From Pseudomonadota bacterium (GTDB taxonomy: Bacteria > Bdellovibrionota > Bacteriovoracia > Bacteriovoracales > Bacteriovoracaceae): a DNA stretch of 64,000 nucleotides. The position numbers were made by a program, and so were the translations under genes. The notes beneath the pieces were generated by a model. That model saw only the letters and a program-made list of their open reading frames with translations, was not told the DNA's origin and made no database searches. Every line of letters begins with the position of its first letter. Within the stretch, counting starts at the first letter, position 1. The stretch lies in assembly GCA_027487685.1 (NCBI GenBank), contig JAIYDC010000046.1:1-64000 (forward strand), in the 5' to 3' direction. Positions 44,074 to 51,073 of this stretch are shown one piece after another.

Positions 44074-45342
44074 ATGCAGACTATGGCGATCATCGGTGCT
44101 CAGTGGGGAGATGAAGGTAAGGGTAAAATCACCGACCTTCTCGCAGAAAATTGTGACCTCGTAGTCCGCTACCAGGGAGGCCACAACGCTGGTCATACCA
44201 TTTGGGTCAACGGCCAGAAAACGGTCCTTCATGTAATTCCATCTGGTGTTCTCCACCCGCACTGCCTTTCTGTGATCGGCCATGGTGTTGTTCTTGAGCC
44301 TGAGAACTTTCTAGCGGAGCTCGCGAAGATCAAGTGCATTACTCCAGTGACGCCAGAGAACTTAAAAGTATCGGCCACTGCAACAGTCATCACGAACTAC
44401 CATAAGCTTCTCGACGCCGCCCGTGAGGCCCAGGGCCCAGAGAAAATCGGCACGACCGGTAAGGGCATTGGCCCTGCCTATGAAGACAAGGTGTCTCGGC
44501 GCGGGATTAAAGTGAAAGACCTCCTCGATAAGGACACTCTCGTTCGCCGGCTCTCCAACGGCTACGCCGAAAAAGCTGTCCTATTTAAGCATCTCTATCA
44601 AATAGACATCCCTTCTATCGAAGAAGAGGTCGAGCGCCTGTTCCGCTTGGGCGAATCAATGAAGGATTACGTGACTGATACGTTTAGTCTGATCGATGAC
44701 AAGCTGGCCCAAGGGAAACGCGTTCTTTATGAGGGGGCCCAGGGAATTCTCCTCGACATCGACTACGGCACCTACCCGTTCGTGACGTCTTCCTCTACTG
44801 CTGGTGCCGGGATTTACACCGGCGCGGGAATTCCTGGAAAGAAGCTCGATGAAGTTATCGGCGTTGCCAAGGCCTACACTACTCGCGTGGGTGAGGGTCC
44901 GTTCCCAACGGAACTCACGGACGAACTCGGCGAAGAGATTCAAACTAAAGGCCATGAATTCGGCGCCACTACTGGGCGCAAGCGCCGCTGCGGCTGGCTT
45001 GATCTTCCTCTGCTCCGCTATGCCGTCAAATGTTCACACCTCACCAGCATTGCCCTGACTAAGCTCGACATCCTAAGTAACCTGCGTGAACTCAAAGTCT
45101 GCTATGGCTATGAGGTTAATGGACGAGTGGTTGAATGCGCATATCCAGGAATCAATCTCTATGGCGCTAAGCCCCTCTATAAATCATTCACGCCATTCTC
45201 GGATGATTTCGGAGGGGGAAAACCATCGAAGGAGTTCGAGGCTTACGTTTCCTTCATTCAGGAGTCTCTCGGCATTCCAGTGGGGATCTATGCTTATGGG
45301 CCAGATCGAAATCAAGTTGTCTTTCGGCAGAAGTACTCTTAA
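44074..45342 (+). CDS. purA: Adenylosuccinate synthetase
   Basis: PurA makes adenylosuccinate from IMP, aspartate and GTP, the first committed step to AMP. The 422-residue protein is full length. The GTP loop is WGDEGKGK (11-18), with the catalytic Asp in it; VVRYQGGHNAGHTI (IMP contact), GTTGKGIGPAYEDK, STAGAGIYTGAGIP and TTGRKRRCGWLD follow. The ribosome site AAAGGAA is present. It is a single gene; a relic of the papain-like family begins only 7 bases after its stop. Confidence 0.97.
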   Translation: MQTMAIIGAQWGDEGKGKITDLLAENCDLVVRYQGGHNAGHTIWVNGQKTVLHVIPSGVLHPHCLSVIGHGVVLEPENFLAELAKIKCITPVTPENLKVSATATVITNYHKLLDAAREAQGPEKIGTTGKGIGPAYEDKVSRRGIKVKDLLDKDTLVRRLSNGYAEKAVLFKHLYQIDIPSIEEEVERLFRLGESMKDYVTDTFSLIDDKLAQGKRVLYEGAQGILLDIDYGTYPFVTSSSTAGAGIYTGAGIPGKKLDEVIGVAKAYTTRVGEGPFPTELTDELGEEIQTKGHEFGATTGRKRRCGWLDLPLLRYAVKCSHLTSIALTKLDILSNLRELKVCYGYEVNGRVVECAYPGINLYGAKPLYKSFTPFSDDFGGGKPSKEFEAYVSFIQESLGIPVGIYAYGPDRNQVVFRQKYS

Positions 45343-45349
45343 ATCTGCT

Positions 45350-45397
45350 GGCATCTTGACCGCCGCTCAGAAAATGAACTACCAACTCCTCATGTGA
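45350..45397 (+). pseudogene. Remnant of a papain-like peptidase gene
   Basis: Fifteen codons (GILTAAQKMNYQLLM, then TGA) match the active-site helix of the neighbouring peptidases; the third copy reads AYTAAQLMNYQLVKA. The catalytic Cys part and all the rest are missing. It lies directly after purA, as a trace of an earlier copy. Confidence 0.6.
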
Positions 45398-45420
45398 GGC
45401 CGCAGATCCCGTGAGCGGCC
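45398..45420 (+). terminator. Possible weak terminator after purA
   Basis: GGCCGC and GCGGCC form a 6-base-pair stem around an 11-base loop, followed by ACTCTTCTC rather than a clean T-run. This is the only stem near the purA end. Confidence 0.35.
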
Positions 45421-45491
45421 ACTCTTCTCAGAACTCTCGGCGATTGAAGGACCTCCGGGGATAGATCCGGAGATAGGACGTGCCAACTGAG

Positions 45492-45539
45492 TTAGCAAAG
45501 CTTACCTAGATTGACCGATCCGAAGTTTCCCAAGATAAT
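45492..45539 (+). promoter_or_regulatory. Promoter of papain-like gene 1 with shared upstream box
   Basis: TTGACC (45511), a 17-base spacer and GATAAT (45534-45539) make a good promoter 22 bases before the ATG. The box TTAGCAAAGCTTACC starts 42 bases upstream of GATAAT. Related boxes stand 41 bases before GATAAT at the next three genes. Confidence 0.7.
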
Positions 45540-45560
45540 CCAGTGAGGTAAAGGATCTAC

Positions 45561-46688
45561 ATGCACTCACTGTCGTCGTGCCCACTGGTCATTATGGTGG
45601 TCTTGCTCCTCACCCTTCCTGTCACGGCTCGCGCTAGATCATGCGCGCCCCTAAACCTAATCACAGCTCCAAACTCCCCTTTCAACCGGATTCCCGTGGC
45701 CGACCAGGACGGCATCGGACTTTGCTACGCGTACGTGGGGGCTCAGCTCATAAACTACCAGCTTGTCCGCCAAGGTCGCGCGCCGAGCGTGCACCAGCTT
45801 TTCCTTGGCGTCGAGTACACACTCTTCACCCCCGCGGAAAACCGTGCAGGTAGCATTCAGGGCGGCAACACTGCCGAAGCCATCAGGCAACTCCAAAGCC
45901 GCGGGAACTGCCCGGCCGCGCGTGTGCGTGAGGCCCTCGCCTCTCTTGCCCAGAAGGCCAACTCCCGAGAGGTAGACATCTTTGCATTCATCATCAAAGT
46001 CTCCGAGAGGCTCGTCGAACTGCAGGGACAGAGGACTCGGGTAGGAGGGGGAAGCCTCACCGACGCTGACGTATCGAAGGCCTACGCCGATACCAGAGCC
46101 GCCCTCGAGCCCTACTGCCAGCCGGGGACGCGCCTCGAGCAGATCTTTCCCGAACTCCAGGCGCTGGCCATTGCGGCACCGGAGATCATGCTCCAAGGGA
46201 TCCTCGCGCCGTTTTGCCGGGAGCGAGAGCCGCTCTCGCTCCCGGCCCCGAATGTCCGCCGCTTCCAGAACACTATGGAGGCTACCGCGGCGATCTCAGA
46301 GAAGATAACAACGAATCAGTCACCGGTCTCTATTACCTATTGCGCGCAAGTTCTCTTCGACGGGGCTCACGTAGGACTAGTGCGTACGCCCAGCACCGCC
46401 GAGACAACTGTCACCCTCGCGGCGGACTGCGGACTCCACGAGTCGCTCATCGTCGGGCAGCGGCCCGTGGCCGATGGCGGCTGCGAGTTCCTCCTCAGGA
46501 ATACCTGGGGCACAAACTTCGGTAGAGACACAGCGAACCATAGGTGCCTCTGCCGGCACCGGCGCACAGGAGCCTTCGTTGACAACTGCACCAACGCCAC
46601 CCACAACAACGGCCAGTACGCTGTTGAAGCGTGCTGGATTGGAACTGAGGCCTTAGGTGCCAACGCGGCGAAGATGACATGGATGTAA
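45561..46688 (+). CDS. Exported papain-like cysteine peptidase, copy 1
   Basis: The 375-residue product has a signal peptide (1-25) and a papain (C1) fold. The active-site stretch is PVADQDGIGLCYAYVGAQL, with oxyanion Gln49 and nucleophile Cys55. His293 lies in CGLHESLIVG and Asn314 in LLRNTWGTNFG, the equivalent of NSWG. A long helical insert (about 95-230) separates the halves, unlike plant papain, and no inhibitory propeptide precedes the Cys. The Cys-rich C-terminus (CLCRHRRTGAFVDNCTNATHNNGQYAVEACW) is shared with the next copies. It is the most GC-rich of the three. Likely role: proteolysis outside the cytoplasm, perhaps of prey protein. Confidence 0.85.
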   Translation: MHSLSSCPLVIMVVLLLTLPVTARARSCAPLNLITAPNSPFNRIPVADQDGIGLCYAYVGAQLINYQLVRQGRAPSVHQLFLGVEYTLFTPAENRAGSIQGGNTAEAIRQLQSRGNCPAARVREALASLAQKANSREVDIFAFIIKVSERLVELQGQRTRVGGGSLTDADVSKAYADTRAALEPYCQPGTRLEQIFPELQALAIAAPEIMLQGILAPFCREREPLSLPAPNVRRFQNTMEATAAISEKITTNQSPVSITYCAQVLFDGAHVGLVRTPSTAETTVTLAADCGLHESLIVGQRPVADGGCEFLLRNTWGTNFGRDTANHRCLCRHRRTGAFVDNCTNATHNNGQYAVEACWIGTEALGANAAKMTWM

Positions 46689-46719
46689 CCCTTCAGGTCG
46701 CTGAAATGCCTGAAGTCCC

Positions 46720-46734
46720 AGAGCAAAGCTTTTT
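46720..46734 (+). promoter_or_regulatory. Decayed copy of the shared upstream box
   Basis: AGAGCAAAGCTT matches the box of gene 1, but the region 41-42 bases downstream reads ATCTATA instead of GATAAT. It stands in front of the decayed copy at 46806, as expected for a dead gene unit. Confidence 0.4.
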
Positions 46735-46805
46735 AATAATTGGGAAAGAGGAATTGCGTGATCTATACGCTCCCTAGGAGCTATTAGCTTCACTTCTCCT
46801 CCAGA

Positions 46806-46940
46806 TCGCCGTTCAGACGAATCCCGGTAAAGGATCAGTATGCTGCCCCACTTTGTTCGGCTTACTCTGCGGCACAGCTCCTAAACTACCATCTGATCAA
46901 AAACGGTAGGGACGCTGGCATCGTTGGTGGGAGAATCTAA
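46806..46940 (+). pseudogene. Decayed papain-like peptidase copy (N-terminal fragment)
   Basis: The frame reads SPFRRIPVKDQYAAPLCSAY then SAAQLLNYHLIKNGRDAG and stops at TAA. It aligns without gaps to the active-site region of the intact copies (SPFNRIPVADQDGIGLCYAY). The signal peptide is lost to a stop codon upstream and the C-terminal 300 residues are absent. It occupies most of the 357-base gap between copies 1 and 2. The Cys is still there, so decay is probably recent. Confidence 0.8.
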
Positions 46941-46978
46941 CACCAGTGAGGACAGGCCCAGGGCCTCACACCGCCCCT

Positions 46979-47025
46979 CCAGAAAATCTTGCCTCTTAGA
47001 CTCAATCAAAATTTTGCCCGATAAT
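46979..47025 (+). promoter_or_regulatory. Promoter of papain-like gene 2 with shared box
   Basis: CCAGAAAATCTTGCC at 46979 and GATAAT at 47020 are 41 bases apart, as at the sister genes. The -35 position (TAGACT) is poor. The start codon is 21 bases after GATAAT. Confidence 0.6.
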
Positions 47026-47045
47026 TACAATGAAAAAGGCTGTGC

Positions 47046-48149
47046 GTGCACTACCTGGGCTCTTCGACTTACCTTAATTTTATTCTCTTCCTTATCGCCT
47101 TCTCAGGCCCAATTTCTGCGACAACATGCGGTCCGATAAATCTAGTCACCCAATCCAATTCCCCATTCAATCGAGTTCCAGTCACAGACCAGGATGGAAT
47201 TGGGATGTGCTACGCTTACGCCGGGGCCCAGCTCATGAATTATCATCTCGTCAAGAATGGGCGGGAACCGAGTGTGCATCAACTTTTTCTGGGGGTTGAA
47301 TTTACGCGGTATACAGAGGCAAATTTGGAGAATGCCTCAAATTCCCAGGCCATGGCACACTTGATACGCCGAGGGAACTGTCCGGCGGCCCGGGTGCGTG
47401 AAGCCCTCTCGACCTTGGTCCGTAAAGCAAACTCCAGAGAAGAAGATGTCTACGGTTTCATCATCAAAGTTGCGGAGCGCCTCTTTAAGCTCCAGCGCGA
47501 AAGGACAATGGCGGCCCGCGCTTTCAGACCCGTAGCCCTGACAGAGCAGGAAGTGACGAAAGTCCTGACGGATCTGAACACAGAATTTGCTCCTTATTGC
47601 CAGCCGGGCACTCGCCTCACAGAGATATTCCCCGAATTGCGCGCTCTCGCGATCATGACCCCCGAGAACGTTATGCATGGAATTCTCTCCCCCTTCTGTC
47701 AAACCCGGGAAAGGCTCTCAATTCCAACTCCGAAGTATCGACCGCTCCGAAGTTCGGAAGATGCCCTCTCGGCAATCTCAGAGACTCTGGCAAATGGCCA
47801 GTCCCCGGTTTCCGTTACCTATTGTTCAAGGGTTCTCTACCAATCCGGTTACTTCGGTATCAGGCGCGGGAACAATCCCCCCGCGAGTGATTGTGGACTC
47901 CATGAGTCTTTAGTGGTTGGCCGAAGACCCGTTGGACCGAGTTGCGAGTTTCTCGTGAGAAACTCTTGGGGGACTGGTTTCGGACGCCACACCGCAAACT
48001 CCAAGTGCCTCTGCAAGCACCGCCAGACAGGTGCCTTCGTCGAAGATTGCACCAACGCCACTCATAACAACGGCGACTACACTGTTGAAGCTTGCTGGAT
48101 AGATTCCAGGGCATTTGCTGGGAACTCGGTTGAGATGACTTGGCTCTGA
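47046..48149 (+). CDS. Exported papain-like cysteine peptidase, copy 2
   Basis: The 367-residue product is closely related to copy 1. The signal peptide is at about 1-25 (NFILFLIAFSGPISA). Catalytic residues are Gln49 and Cys55 (DQDGIGMCYAYAGAQL), His286 (CGLHESLVVG) and Asn306 in a classical NSWGTGFG. The start is the GTG at 47046, six bases after AAAAAGG; the nearby ATG at 47030 is in another frame and stops after 15 codons. All active-site elements are intact. The C-terminal KCLCKHRQTGAFVEDCTNATHNNG block is shared with copy 1. Confidence 0.85.
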   Translation: MHYLGSSTYLNFILFLIAFSGPISATTCGPINLVTQSNSPFNRVPVTDQDGIGMCYAYAGAQLMNYHLVKNGREPSVHQLFLGVEFTRYTEANLENASNSQAMAHLIRRGNCPAARVREALSTLVRKANSREEDVYGFIIKVAERLFKLQRERTMAARAFRPVALTEQEVTKVLTDLNTEFAPYCQPGTRLTEIFPELRALAIMTPENVMHGILSPFCQTRERLSIPTPKYRPLRSSEDALSAISETLANGQSPVSVTYCSRVLYQSGYFGIRRGNNPPASDCGLHESLVVGRRPVGPSCEFLVRNSWGTGFGRHTANSKCLCKHRQTGAFVEDCTNATHNNGDYTVEACWIDSRAFAGNSVEMTWL

Positions 48150-48156
48150 CGACTCG

Positions 48157-48203
48157 CTTGCAAATCTTGCCCGCTTCGATCCAGAGCGAGTGTGACGGAT
48201 AAT
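48157..48203 (+). promoter_or_regulatory. Promoter of papain-like gene 3 with shared box
   Basis: CTTGCAAATCTTGCC at 48157 and GATAAT at 48198 are 41 bases apart. The ATG is only 7 bases after GATAAT ends, so transcripts from here would be nearly leaderless. Confidence 0.55.
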
Positions 48204-48210
48204 CATCGAC

Positions 48211-49320
48211 ATGAAGATTGTTTTCTTTGGAGCCATGGGCCTGCTGCTGTCCCAGATTAGCGTCGCTTCAACTCCCGGTTGCGTGCCGACGAATCTCATT
48301 ACTGCCCAGAACTCTCCTTTCAATCGAATACCGGTGATGGATCAGAACGGGGTTGGCCTATGCCACGCCTACACGGCAGCACAGCTCATGAACTACCAGC
48401 TGGTCAAAGCGGGAGGCGAACCATCTGTTCATCCGTTATGGGGAGGAATTAAGCTCGCCGAGGCGAACCGAACATCATCTCTCCAAGAGGGAGACGTTCC
48501 CTCCACTGTTCGGCATCTCCTAGAACGTGGAAACTGCCCGGTTGAGCGCATTCGCGTTGCTCTCGAGAGATGGGTCCGTCTTGGAAATGCCAGAGAAATA
48601 GATATCGTTGGCATTATTGATCGATTTGCCCACCAGGTCTATACCCGTCAGACCCAGGAGTTTCGCCGTAACCAGTCTTATGATATCCCGGAACAGGAAA
48701 TTCAGCGGCTTCTTAGGCGTGCGGTCGCCGAGCAGGAGGAATTCTGTGACAACGGCTCCCTCCAGGAACTTATTCCGGAGCTTCAAAATCTCGCTGTACT
48801 GCGATCTCCCCAGATGCTCTCAAGACTTCTCCTCCCTGAATGCCGGGGAAATCTTGAGTCTCTGACTCTCCCTCGCTTCCAAAGTGATCACCGGGTACCT
48901 ACACAGGACTGGTCAAAAAAGATTAGTGAAACCCTTCAGCGAGCGGGATCACCCGTTGGCATAAGCTACTGCTCAAAATTTCTTATCCGGCCTGGCGACG
49001 TGGGTGTTATTGACCGCAGAGATCCGGCGCGGCCTCAACTCACCGAAGAATGCGGAGCCCATGCCTCCATCGTGGTAGGTCAAAAACCTGTCGGCAATAA
49101 GTGCCAATTTCTGATCCGGAATTCCCATGGAAATGGATTCGGTCCGGAAACTGAGAACTGGAAGTGCCTTTGTCGTCATCGGCGCAGCGGCGCCGTAGTT
49201 GACGACTGCCAGAAGAGTACCCACGATGACGGTCAATACTCGGTGGAAGGCTGCTGGGTCGACGCTGAACAACTTGGCCGCAATATGCTCCAAATCAACT
49301 GGTTCGAGTCAACACCCTAA
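48211..49320 (+). CDS. Exported papain-like cysteine peptidase, copy 3 (divergent)
   Basis: The 369-residue product has a signal peptide (1-19), the active-site stretch PVMDQNGVGLCHAYTAAQL with Cys51, His284 in CGAHASIVVG and Asn304 in IRNSHGNGFG. The Trp of the NSWG motif is replaced by His, and the residue after Cys is His, so specificity or activity may differ from copies 1 and 2. The middle insert also diverges strongly. The Cys-rich C-terminus (CLCRHRRSGAVVDDCQKSTHDDGQYSVEGCW) is conserved. No good Shine-Dalgarno is seen, fitting a nearly leaderless start. Confidence 0.82.
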   Translation: MKIVFFGAMGLLLSQISVASTPGCVPTNLITAQNSPFNRIPVMDQNGVGLCHAYTAAQLMNYQLVKAGGEPSVHPLWGGIKLAEANRTSSLQEGDVPSTVRHLLERGNCPVERIRVALERWVRLGNAREIDIVGIIDRFAHQVYTRQTQEFRRNQSYDIPEQEIQRLLRRAVAEQEEFCDNGSLQELIPELQNLAVLRSPQMLSRLLLPECRGNLESLTLPRFQSDHRVPTQDWSKKISETLQRAGSPVGISYCSKFLIRPGDVGVIDRRDPARPQLTEECGAHASIVVGQKPVGNKCQFLIRNSHGNGFGPETENWKCLCRHRRSGAVVDDCQKSTHDDGQYSVEGCWVDAEQLGRNMLQINWFESTP

Positions 49321-49367
49321 TTAGCAAAACTTACCGCCTACGGACTAGAAGGGATTCCATGGATAAT
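49321..49367 (+). promoter_or_regulatory. Promoter of the DUF333-like gene with shared box
   Basis: TTAGCAAAACTTACC at 49321 matches the gene 1 box at 14 of 15 bases, and GATAAT follows 41 bases on (49362). The -35 position (TACGGA) is weak. This ties the small gene to the peptidase group. Confidence 0.6.
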
Positions 49368-49389
49368 AGAAAGAAGAGGATTCCAACCC

Positions 49390-49764
49390 ATGAGCATATC
49401 CAAGATCTGCACACTCATTCTGTTTTACTTTCTCTCACGCCTGGCGGTGGCCGGGACATGCGAAACGTTTAGCGGCTACACGGTCAAAGAGAAGCTTTGC
49501 TGGGACGATAAAATCAAGGGGTGGCTCTCAGAATCTTGTCAGAAGAAAAAATGCGAGGCGCGTGCTTTCTTGGAGGGTGCAGCGCCAAAAGTAAAAACTG
49601 AAGCTCCTGTAGGGGGCCAGAACCCGGCCACTCTTTACTGCCACAGTCTCAAGCTACCGGTCGTTATCCTGCGGGACGCCAAGGGCAATGAACAGTCATT
49701 CTGCAGTTTCAAAGACGGCACTCTCGCCGACCCCAATGCTATCGAGCGGCATATTCGTACATAA
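49390..49764 (+). CDS. Small exported Cys-rich protein, DUF333-like
   Basis: The 124-residue product has a signal peptide (1-21) and seven Cys in the mature part. The C-terminal NPATLYCHSLKLPVVILRDAKGNEQSFCSFKDGT matches the DUF333 pattern (NPAxxYC ... CxFxDG), seen in small exported or lipoprotein domains of unknown function. The N-terminal Cys-rich stretch (CETFSGYTVKEKLCWDDKIKGWLSESCQKKKC) is unrecognised. Sharing the peptidase promoter box suggests joint expression; it could be an inhibitor, a chaperone or a co-secreted factor. Confidence 0.72.
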   Translation: MSISKICTLILFYFLSRLAVAGTCETFSGYTVKEKLCWDDKIKGWLSESCQKKKCEARAFLEGAAPKVKTEAPVGGQNPATLYCHSLKLPVVILRDAKGNEQSFCSFKDGTLADPNAIERHIRT

Positions 49765-49768
49765 TCTC

Positions 49769-51073
49769 TTAGGCAAGAGAACCCGAAAGCCAGGTCGACC
49801 GCATGGCCTGATGGTGACCCTCGATCCTGATTCTCCGAATTTCATTTTTAAGTAATTCGCCGCTTCGAACTCTGACTCGTAAGAAGTTGGAGCTGTAACC
49901 TTCCCAGAATCCATCGACCTCGTTTTCAAAAAGAACTTCCGTCGTTTGCCCTACCCTGTTGGCCGCAAAATCCGCGAGCTTGGCATCTCCGAGCATAACG
50001 AGAGTTCGAACACGGTCTTTTTTCACCGAGCTTTGAATTTGATTCTCAAGCTTTGCGGCCGTGGTCCCCTTCCTCTTTGAGTAAGGAAAGACATGGAAGT
50101 GAGTCAACGGCTGAGTCCGTAAGAGGTTAAAAGTTTCAAGAAATTGCTCCTCCGTTTCCCCTGGGTAGCCAACGATGACATCCGCCCCAAACGCCGCCTC
50201 TGGAAAGAAAGACTGAACTTCCGCTAAGAGGTCCTTATAATGGGCAGTCGTGTACTTGCGGCGCATCGAGGTAAGAATTTGATCACTGCCACTCTGAAGC
50301 GGAATATGGAAATGGTCCTGGTACTTACCCGTGGCCTTGAGAGTTTCTAGCAATTCACGGGTCACTGTATTAGGTTCAACGGAACCAAGACGAAGGCGCA
50401 TGACCTCTGGGATGTCAGCGATACGTTTCACGAGGTCCGTCAGACGCTCCCCGCTAATTGATTCATACTCACCGATATTAACACCAGTCAGGACGATCTC
50501 TTTGAAGCCCTTCGCCGCCAGCGCCTTTGCCTCGACGAGAGCATCGGCGACAGTGATCGTCCGAGAGCGGCCGCGGGCAAACGGGATGATGCAGAATGAA
50601 CATACGTAGTTACAGCCATCTTGTATTTTTAAGAAAGCACGGGTGCGGGAATCTGCCAGGGTCGTAGCCGCTCCCCAAAACTCAGAGGACTTATCGATAT
50701 GAACCTCGTGCTCTTTCTCAGAGTCGAGGTAATCAAAAACTTTATACTTTTCAGATGTCCCCAGGATGAGGTCCACCCCTTGCATGGTCTTAAGCTTTTC
50801 CGCTTCCATCTGCGCATAACAACCCGCTACGACGATCTTCGCCTCAGGTGAGGACACCTGGGCCTTGCGGATCAGGTTACGACAAGCCGAATCTGCGCCG
50901 TCAGTAACGGTACAGGTATTCAGGAAGACAACATCCGCAGAAGTACCAAACTCTACCACCTCATAGCCACGATCAACAAAACCTTGCGCGATTGCTCCGG
51001 ATTCAGAAAAATTCAGCCGGCAGCCGAGAGTATGAAAGGAAACTTTTTTTGAGGAGAGTGAAGATATTTCCAT
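49769..51073 (-). CDS. mtaB: MtaB-type tRNA methylthiotransferase (radical SAM)
   Basis: MtaB converts t6A37 of certain tRNAs to ms2t6A. The 434-residue protein has the N-terminal UPF0004 domain with TLGCRLN, NTCTVT and VVAGCYAQ cysteines for one iron-sulfur cluster, the radical SAM domain with GCNYVCSFCIIPFARGRSRT for the second, and a C-terminal TRAM-like part (about 370-425). TLGC-x-N is typical of MtaB rather than MiaB or RimO. It is transcribed away from two tRNA genes, one of them tRNA-Lys(UUU), a known type of MtaB substrate. Confidence 0.9.
   Translation of the reverse strand: MEISSLSSKKVSFHTLGCRLNFSESGAIAQGFVDRGYEVVEFGTSADVVFLNTCTVTDGADSACRNLIRKAQVSSPEAKIVVAGCYAQMEAEKLKTMQGVDLILGTSEKYKVFDYLDSEKEHEVHIDKSSEFWGAATTLADSRTRAFLKIQDGCNYVCSFCIIPFARGRSRTITVADALVEAKALAAKGFKEIVLTGVNIGEYESISGERLTDLVKRIADIPEVMRLRLGSVEPNTVTRELLETLKATGKYQDHFHIPLQSGSDQILTSMRRKYTTAHYKDLLAEVQSFFPEAAFGADVIVGYPGETEEQFLETFNLLRTQPLTHFHVFPYSKRKGTTAAKLENQIQSSVKKDRVRTLVMLGDAKLADFAANRVGQTTEVLFENEVDGFWEGYSSNFLRVRVRSGELLKNEIRRIRIEGHHQAMRSTWLSGSLA

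Follow-up and report, generated by a model that had tools for sequence, protein, structure and literature searches.

The window (the 64,000 nucleotides of contig JAIYDC010000046.1 that were analyzed) contains three genes for papain-like proteins in a row, followed by a small gene of a different type. Which enzymes are encoded by this row, how did it arise, and what does the small gene contribute?

The locus

Papain-like proteins 1 (45561-46688, 375 aa), 2 (47046-48149, 367 aa, with a GTG start) and 3 (48211-49320, 369 aa) are encoded on the forward strand and share 40-56% sequence identity. All three genes are intact, as originally predicted. In that prediction, the complete interval 45345-49764 was considered a papain array. 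This is correct for the three genes but not for the final ORF (49390-49764, forward strand, 124 aa), which is not papain-like. It codes for an exported partner protein of the DUF333 type, a conserved component that the earlier reading had omitted. The left border of the locus is purA (44074-45342, forward strand; adenylosuccinate synthetase by sequence), which is 97% identical to its counterpart in a sister species (genome G006) and is located at this border in other members of the genus as well. The right border is a gene for a MiaB/MtaB-like methylthiotransferase (49769-51073, reverse strand; also assigned by sequence). Its position matches that in G006, G009 and G015, and it is found on the far side of the locus from purA in several relatives. 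A tblastn search of the entire genome (3.79 Mb in 149 contigs) revealed no further close paralog of the array. A phage or plasmid origin was considered and rejected, as the array had no tblastn match in either collection.

Fold and family assignment of the proteases

An AlphaFold2 model of papain-like protein 2 (pLDDT 88.8, pTM 0.86) shows the predicted papain fold, on the presence of which the original prediction had staked its case. The best PDB matches of this model, as found by Foldseek, are papain-family enzymes (cathepsin- and papain-type endopeptidases), led by procerain B (E 2.7e-6, TM-score 0.67 normalized on the target). When a profile of 23 family members from related genomes was compared to the PDB, cathepsins and ficins were retrieved at E values of about 1e-5. 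Pfam and NCBIfam returned nothing above cut-off for the array proteases. For the Pfam C1 profile (PF00112), papain-like protein 2 (P0002) scores 13.4 bits, below the cut-off of 20.7, while proteins 1 and 3 (P0001, P0003) are not matched; among the 23 family members, eight are matched, with E values up to 0.1.

The original prediction could not name a family for these proteins. Fold and motifs now place them, on the basis of sequence and model, into clan CA close to family C1A, as a divergent branch that is spread across the phylum. They share with C1A enzymes (papain, cathepsins L, S and K, procerain B) the predicted papain fold, the Gln-Cys-His-Asn register and a mature N-terminus that is located ca. 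25-30 residues ahead of the Cys. They differ from C1A enzymes by a sequence identity of only 11-14% in structure alignments, a helical insert of ca. 100 residues between Cys and His, an extra Cys-rich C-terminal block, the lack of an I29 propeptide and a score under the Pfam C1 cut-off. In the model of protein 2, the helices of the insert fall within residues 114-217 (coding region 47385-47696, forward strand, according to the secondary structure). The insert is present in the array proteins, as had been described, but it is not universal. Short family members (299-316 aa) are devoid of most of it, so that we regard it as an elaboration rather than as part of the core.

Active site, export signal and predicted mature N-terminus

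The predicted catalytic residues Cys-His-Asn (55/293/314, 55/286/306 and 51/284/304 in proteins 1-3, respectively) are located in aligned invariant columns. The alignment also reveals the oxyanion-hole Gln, six residues ahead of the Cys (Q49, Q49 and Q45). The four residues have the order and spacing expected for family C1A and clan CA, and all of them, together with several further Cys, are invariant in the alignment of the 23 family members. At the catalytic Asn, where RNSWG is usual, papain-like protein 3 and its ortholog L040:9512-10621 read RNSHG.

Each of the three proteins begins with a hydrophobic segment that resembles a signal peptide, and its catalytic Cys is at residue 51-55. A threshold for N-terminal hydrophobicity is a poor discriminator, being passed by 52% of the control ORFs, and the assignment of a signal peptide is therefore based on reading the aligned N-termini. 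Upon removal of the predicted signal peptide, only ca. 25-30 residues are left ahead of the Cys, too few to accommodate an N-terminal propeptide of the classical type. Mature papain has a similar N-terminal distance to its catalytic Cys. As Pfam also found no I29-type propeptide in the array proteins or in the 23-member family, the lack of a recognizable propeptide, reported already in the original prediction, is borne out. The papain-like proteins are thus predicted to be catalytically competent, exported cysteine proteases, which is one element of the explanation proposed below.

Decayed copies and history of the array

Two decayed copies had been predicted in addition to the intact genes. 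The fragment at 46797-46940 (forward strand; SPFRRIPVKDQYAAPLCSAYSAAQLLNYHLIKNG...), which retains the active-site Cys, is a real relic. It was found by tblastn with an E value of 2.9e-10, and its raw score was 134, whereas the best of 400 dinucleotide shuffles reached 53. The sister genome G006 has three papain-like copies in a row, and the relic matches copy 1 of these with 71% identity over 34 aa, the APLCSAY motif being common to both. It is assigned as the decayed ortholog of this copy; judged by sequence, a copy that is still alive in one sister species has decayed in the other. The fragment at 45350-45397 (forward strand, possibly extending to about 45450; AAQKMNYQLLM*GRR...) has a score of 55, which was reached by none of the 400 shuffles and by one of 600 random stretches from the window. 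This match is, however, short (14-22 residues), has an internal stop and was obtained by tblastn at about 3e-4 on a search space of 218 bp. It is suggestive of a papain-like copy, and its assignment as a remnant is probable at best.

In a phylogenetic tree, all six copies from the window's genome and G006 group together. Papain-like protein 3 pairs with G006 copy 3 (78% identity) and protein 2 with G006 copy 2, while protein 1 branches just outside the protein 2 pair. This grouping and the match of the relic to G006 copy 1 indicate that the array arose within the genus, before the species split. As judged from dN/dS values of about 0.07-0.08 between orthologs (with dS near saturation), the array copies are under purifying selection. 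Gene 1 (45561-46688) has a GC3 of 0.73 (z 2.85), the highest among the listed genes of the window and close to the values in G006. This outlying GC3 might reflect exchange with a relative. The notion of birth and death by repeated duplication thus holds with respect to the orthologs and the relic, but the duplications date far back, and exchange may account for some of the turnover.

A DUF333-type partner protein

The partner (49390-49764) is a small, Cys-rich protein with a signal peptide, the latter being read from the aligned N-termini. DUF333 (Pfam PF03891) is a domain exemplified by E. coli YoaF. It is matched by the C-terminal half of the partner with an E value of 1.8e-4 and 22.2 bits, below the cut-off of 25. 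In the partner family, 9 of 15 members match this profile (best 5.3e-10), and a paired homolog from another family of the phylum reaches 56.8 bits (cut-off 25) and is an unambiguous DUF333 protein. DUF333 is the sole recurrent Pfam match in the partner family. The partner differs from other DUF333 proteins in having an additional N-terminal region and in being linked to a protease. No other DUF333-like gene was found in the window's genome.

We know of no function attributed to DUF333. A literature search retrieved neither binding or inhibition data for any DUF333 protein nor a functional report for DUF333 or for the papain-like proteases of this group; PMC10318531 was matched via DUF3335 only. 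A known inhibitor fold was considered for the partner and rejected. The best Foldseek match of its model had an E value of 0.3, and comparison of the sequence profile to the PDB gave nothing meaningful. No solved structure is similar to the model, which therefore does not resemble any known inhibitor fold. By Pfam, neither the proteases nor the partner family have a known propeptide or inhibitor domain.

Pairing of partner and protease genes

When 98 related genomes were searched for the partner, 79 matches were obtained outside the window's own genome. According to match coordinates, at least 45 of these have a papain match on the same strand within 2.5 kb, with 0.18 expected by chance. These adjacency statistics rule out that the partner is a chance neighbor. 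Inspection of the ORFs surrounding the remaining 34 loci revealed 22 and then four additional papain neighbors. In total, 71 of the 79 partner genes adjoin a papain-like gene (three on the opposite strand), and eight homologs are devoid of such a neighbor. The ORF set contains 44 same-strand pairs, with the protease being first in 32 and the partner in 12. The reading frames overlap in 37 of these pairs, by exactly 4 bp in 23; starts were those of the longest ORF, and larger overlaps may be overcalled. Adjacency and 4-bp overlaps point to an arrangement for joint expression. In the window, the partner gene starts 69 bp downstream of papain-like gene 3, without frame overlap, and this one partner gene accompanies three proteases.

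In the 43 full-length pairs, Gln, Cys and His are always present in the protease, Asn is present in 39, and each of the 43 partners has two Cys. Four paired proteins (L091:3765-5900, L079:3624-5645, L096:4033-6078 and L077:6338-7834) have Glu or Asp in place of the catalytic Asn (IRES/IRDS), pointing to a variant of the active site. Among the partner-linked papain-like proteins, many are long (580-711 aa) and have kept the catalytic Gln, Cys and His. The four of these that were scanned (L065:4072-5895, L083:5886-7817, L096:4033-6078 and L079:3624-5645) have no Pfam match at E 0.01. In G022 (L045:1477-3831), one partner gene is flanked by two papain-like genes, one short and the other long, a natural layout of two proteases with one partner.

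In a sample covering the phylum, the partner occurs in 86 of 241 genomes. Twenty loci, mostly from other families, were examined, and 16 have a papain-like neighbor (divergent in one case and broken into two ORFs in another). Of the remaining four, two have a papain-like gene on the opposite strand, at a distance of about 2 kb, and the others have none. The papain-like gene in two ORFs (L133:5652-6715) is adjacent to an intact partner gene and is probably another decayed copy.

The patristic distances of proteases and partners correlate (r 0.59). When partners were shuffled only within the same genome, so that the species signal was kept, this value was reached in 5 of 5000 trials. Proteases and partners thus tend to be matched.

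Proposed role of the partner

As DUF333-type genes are found beside such proteases across the phylum, their products are probably dedicated inhibitors or folding helpers. We propose that these exported cysteine proteases, which lack a classical propeptide, are accompanied by a cognate DUF333-type regulator (inhibitor and/or folding helper), an explanation that we hold, as a whole, with moderate confidence. The partner would bind to the protease in the envelope and would keep it silent until it is released, while translational coupling would ensure that the partner is made in step with the protease. Upon release, the proteases would degrade extracellular protein, which in predatory representatives of the group may be that of the prey. 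The original prediction had suggested a digestion of prey or host proteins, and prey digestion is a plausible candidate role in this group. In the lineage represented by the window, the protease half of the system would have multiplied to a tandem array, with a single partner gene serving all copies. It is tempting to speculate that DUF333 proteins constitute a novel class of exported factors that inhibit papain-fold enzymes or help them to fold throughout the phylum, which comprises predators and related bacteria, but this generalization is tentative.

Protease-inhibitor pairs have been described in other bacteria. The C10 proteases of Bacteroides (Bfp/Btp) are co-transcribed with exported staphostatin-like inhibitors (Bfi/Bti), with one inhibitor gene located between two protease genes (PMC3462683). 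Both systems combine exported papain-fold proteases with a small exported protein encoded by a neighboring gene, and in both, clusters contain several proteases and fewer inhibitor or partner genes. They differ in that our proteases belong to another family, the partner is of the DUF333 type rather than staphostatin-like, and its inhibitory function is a proposal. The staphopain-staphostatin and SpeB-Spi pairs also have a small protein encoded beside a papain-fold protease, but the staphostatin and Spi inhibitors are thought to be cytoplasmic (PMC3462683), whereas the partner in the window carries a signal peptide.

Four more conventional C1 peptidases are encoded elsewhere in the same genome (G000:C39:625-1335, G000:C89:34986-37359, G000:C115:17643-18257). 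Some of them have lipoprotein-like N-termini, and two of the genes are in tandem. These four have neither a DUF333 partner nor an I29 propeptide domain. A missing propeptide does not in itself require a partner, and the idea that the partner replaces the propeptide as a strict rule is thereby weakened. Other observations that speak against the proposed role are the 69-bp gap without frame overlap in the window, the eight partner homologs that have no papain neighbor, and the partner model, to which no solved structure is similar.

Alternatively, the partner might belong to the active enzyme as an accessory subunit, mediating anchoring, outer-membrane passage or substrate recruitment without any inhibition. 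Pairing, coupling and co-diversification also fit to such a subunit, as does a small, exported, Cys-rich protein in which no inhibitor fold is recognized. However, those co-encoded small partners of bacterial papain-like proteases that have a known function are inhibitors (PMC3462683), and in the window one partner gene serves three proteases, so that we consider an accessory subunit unlikely. It is quite improbable that the pair consists of an ordinary periplasmic quality-control protease and a structural or redox-related small neighbor, with the array reflecting neutral turnover. The occurrence of the genes in related genomes of unknown lifestyle and the dispensability of single copies, as evident from the decayed ones, would agree with this, but the low dN/dS between orthologs and the phylum-wide conservation of the pair do not. 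Least probable is that the papain-fold proteins act on a non-protein substrate (as transglutaminase, ligase or cell-wall amidase) with an immunity-like or accessory partner: the sequences are distant from known C1 enzymes, a few paired members have Glu or Asp for the catalytic Asn and one has just a weak Peptidase_C39_2 match, but most pairs keep Gln-Cys-His-Asn and the structure matches are to endopeptidases.

Significance

On its own, the array would be of modest interest: its enzymes form a divergent branch of a family that is already known, and its genes turn over. It is the pairing with DUF333 that is valuable, because it turns an uncharacterized domain into a testable candidate for an inhibitor or chaperone. 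It is poorly understood how predatory bacteria avoid self-digestion although they export numerous proteases. A simple candidate answer to this problem is a protease that is conserved across the phylum together with an exported partner encoded beside it. If DUF333 proteins indeed act as such inhibitors or folding helpers, this widespread domain would gain its first function.
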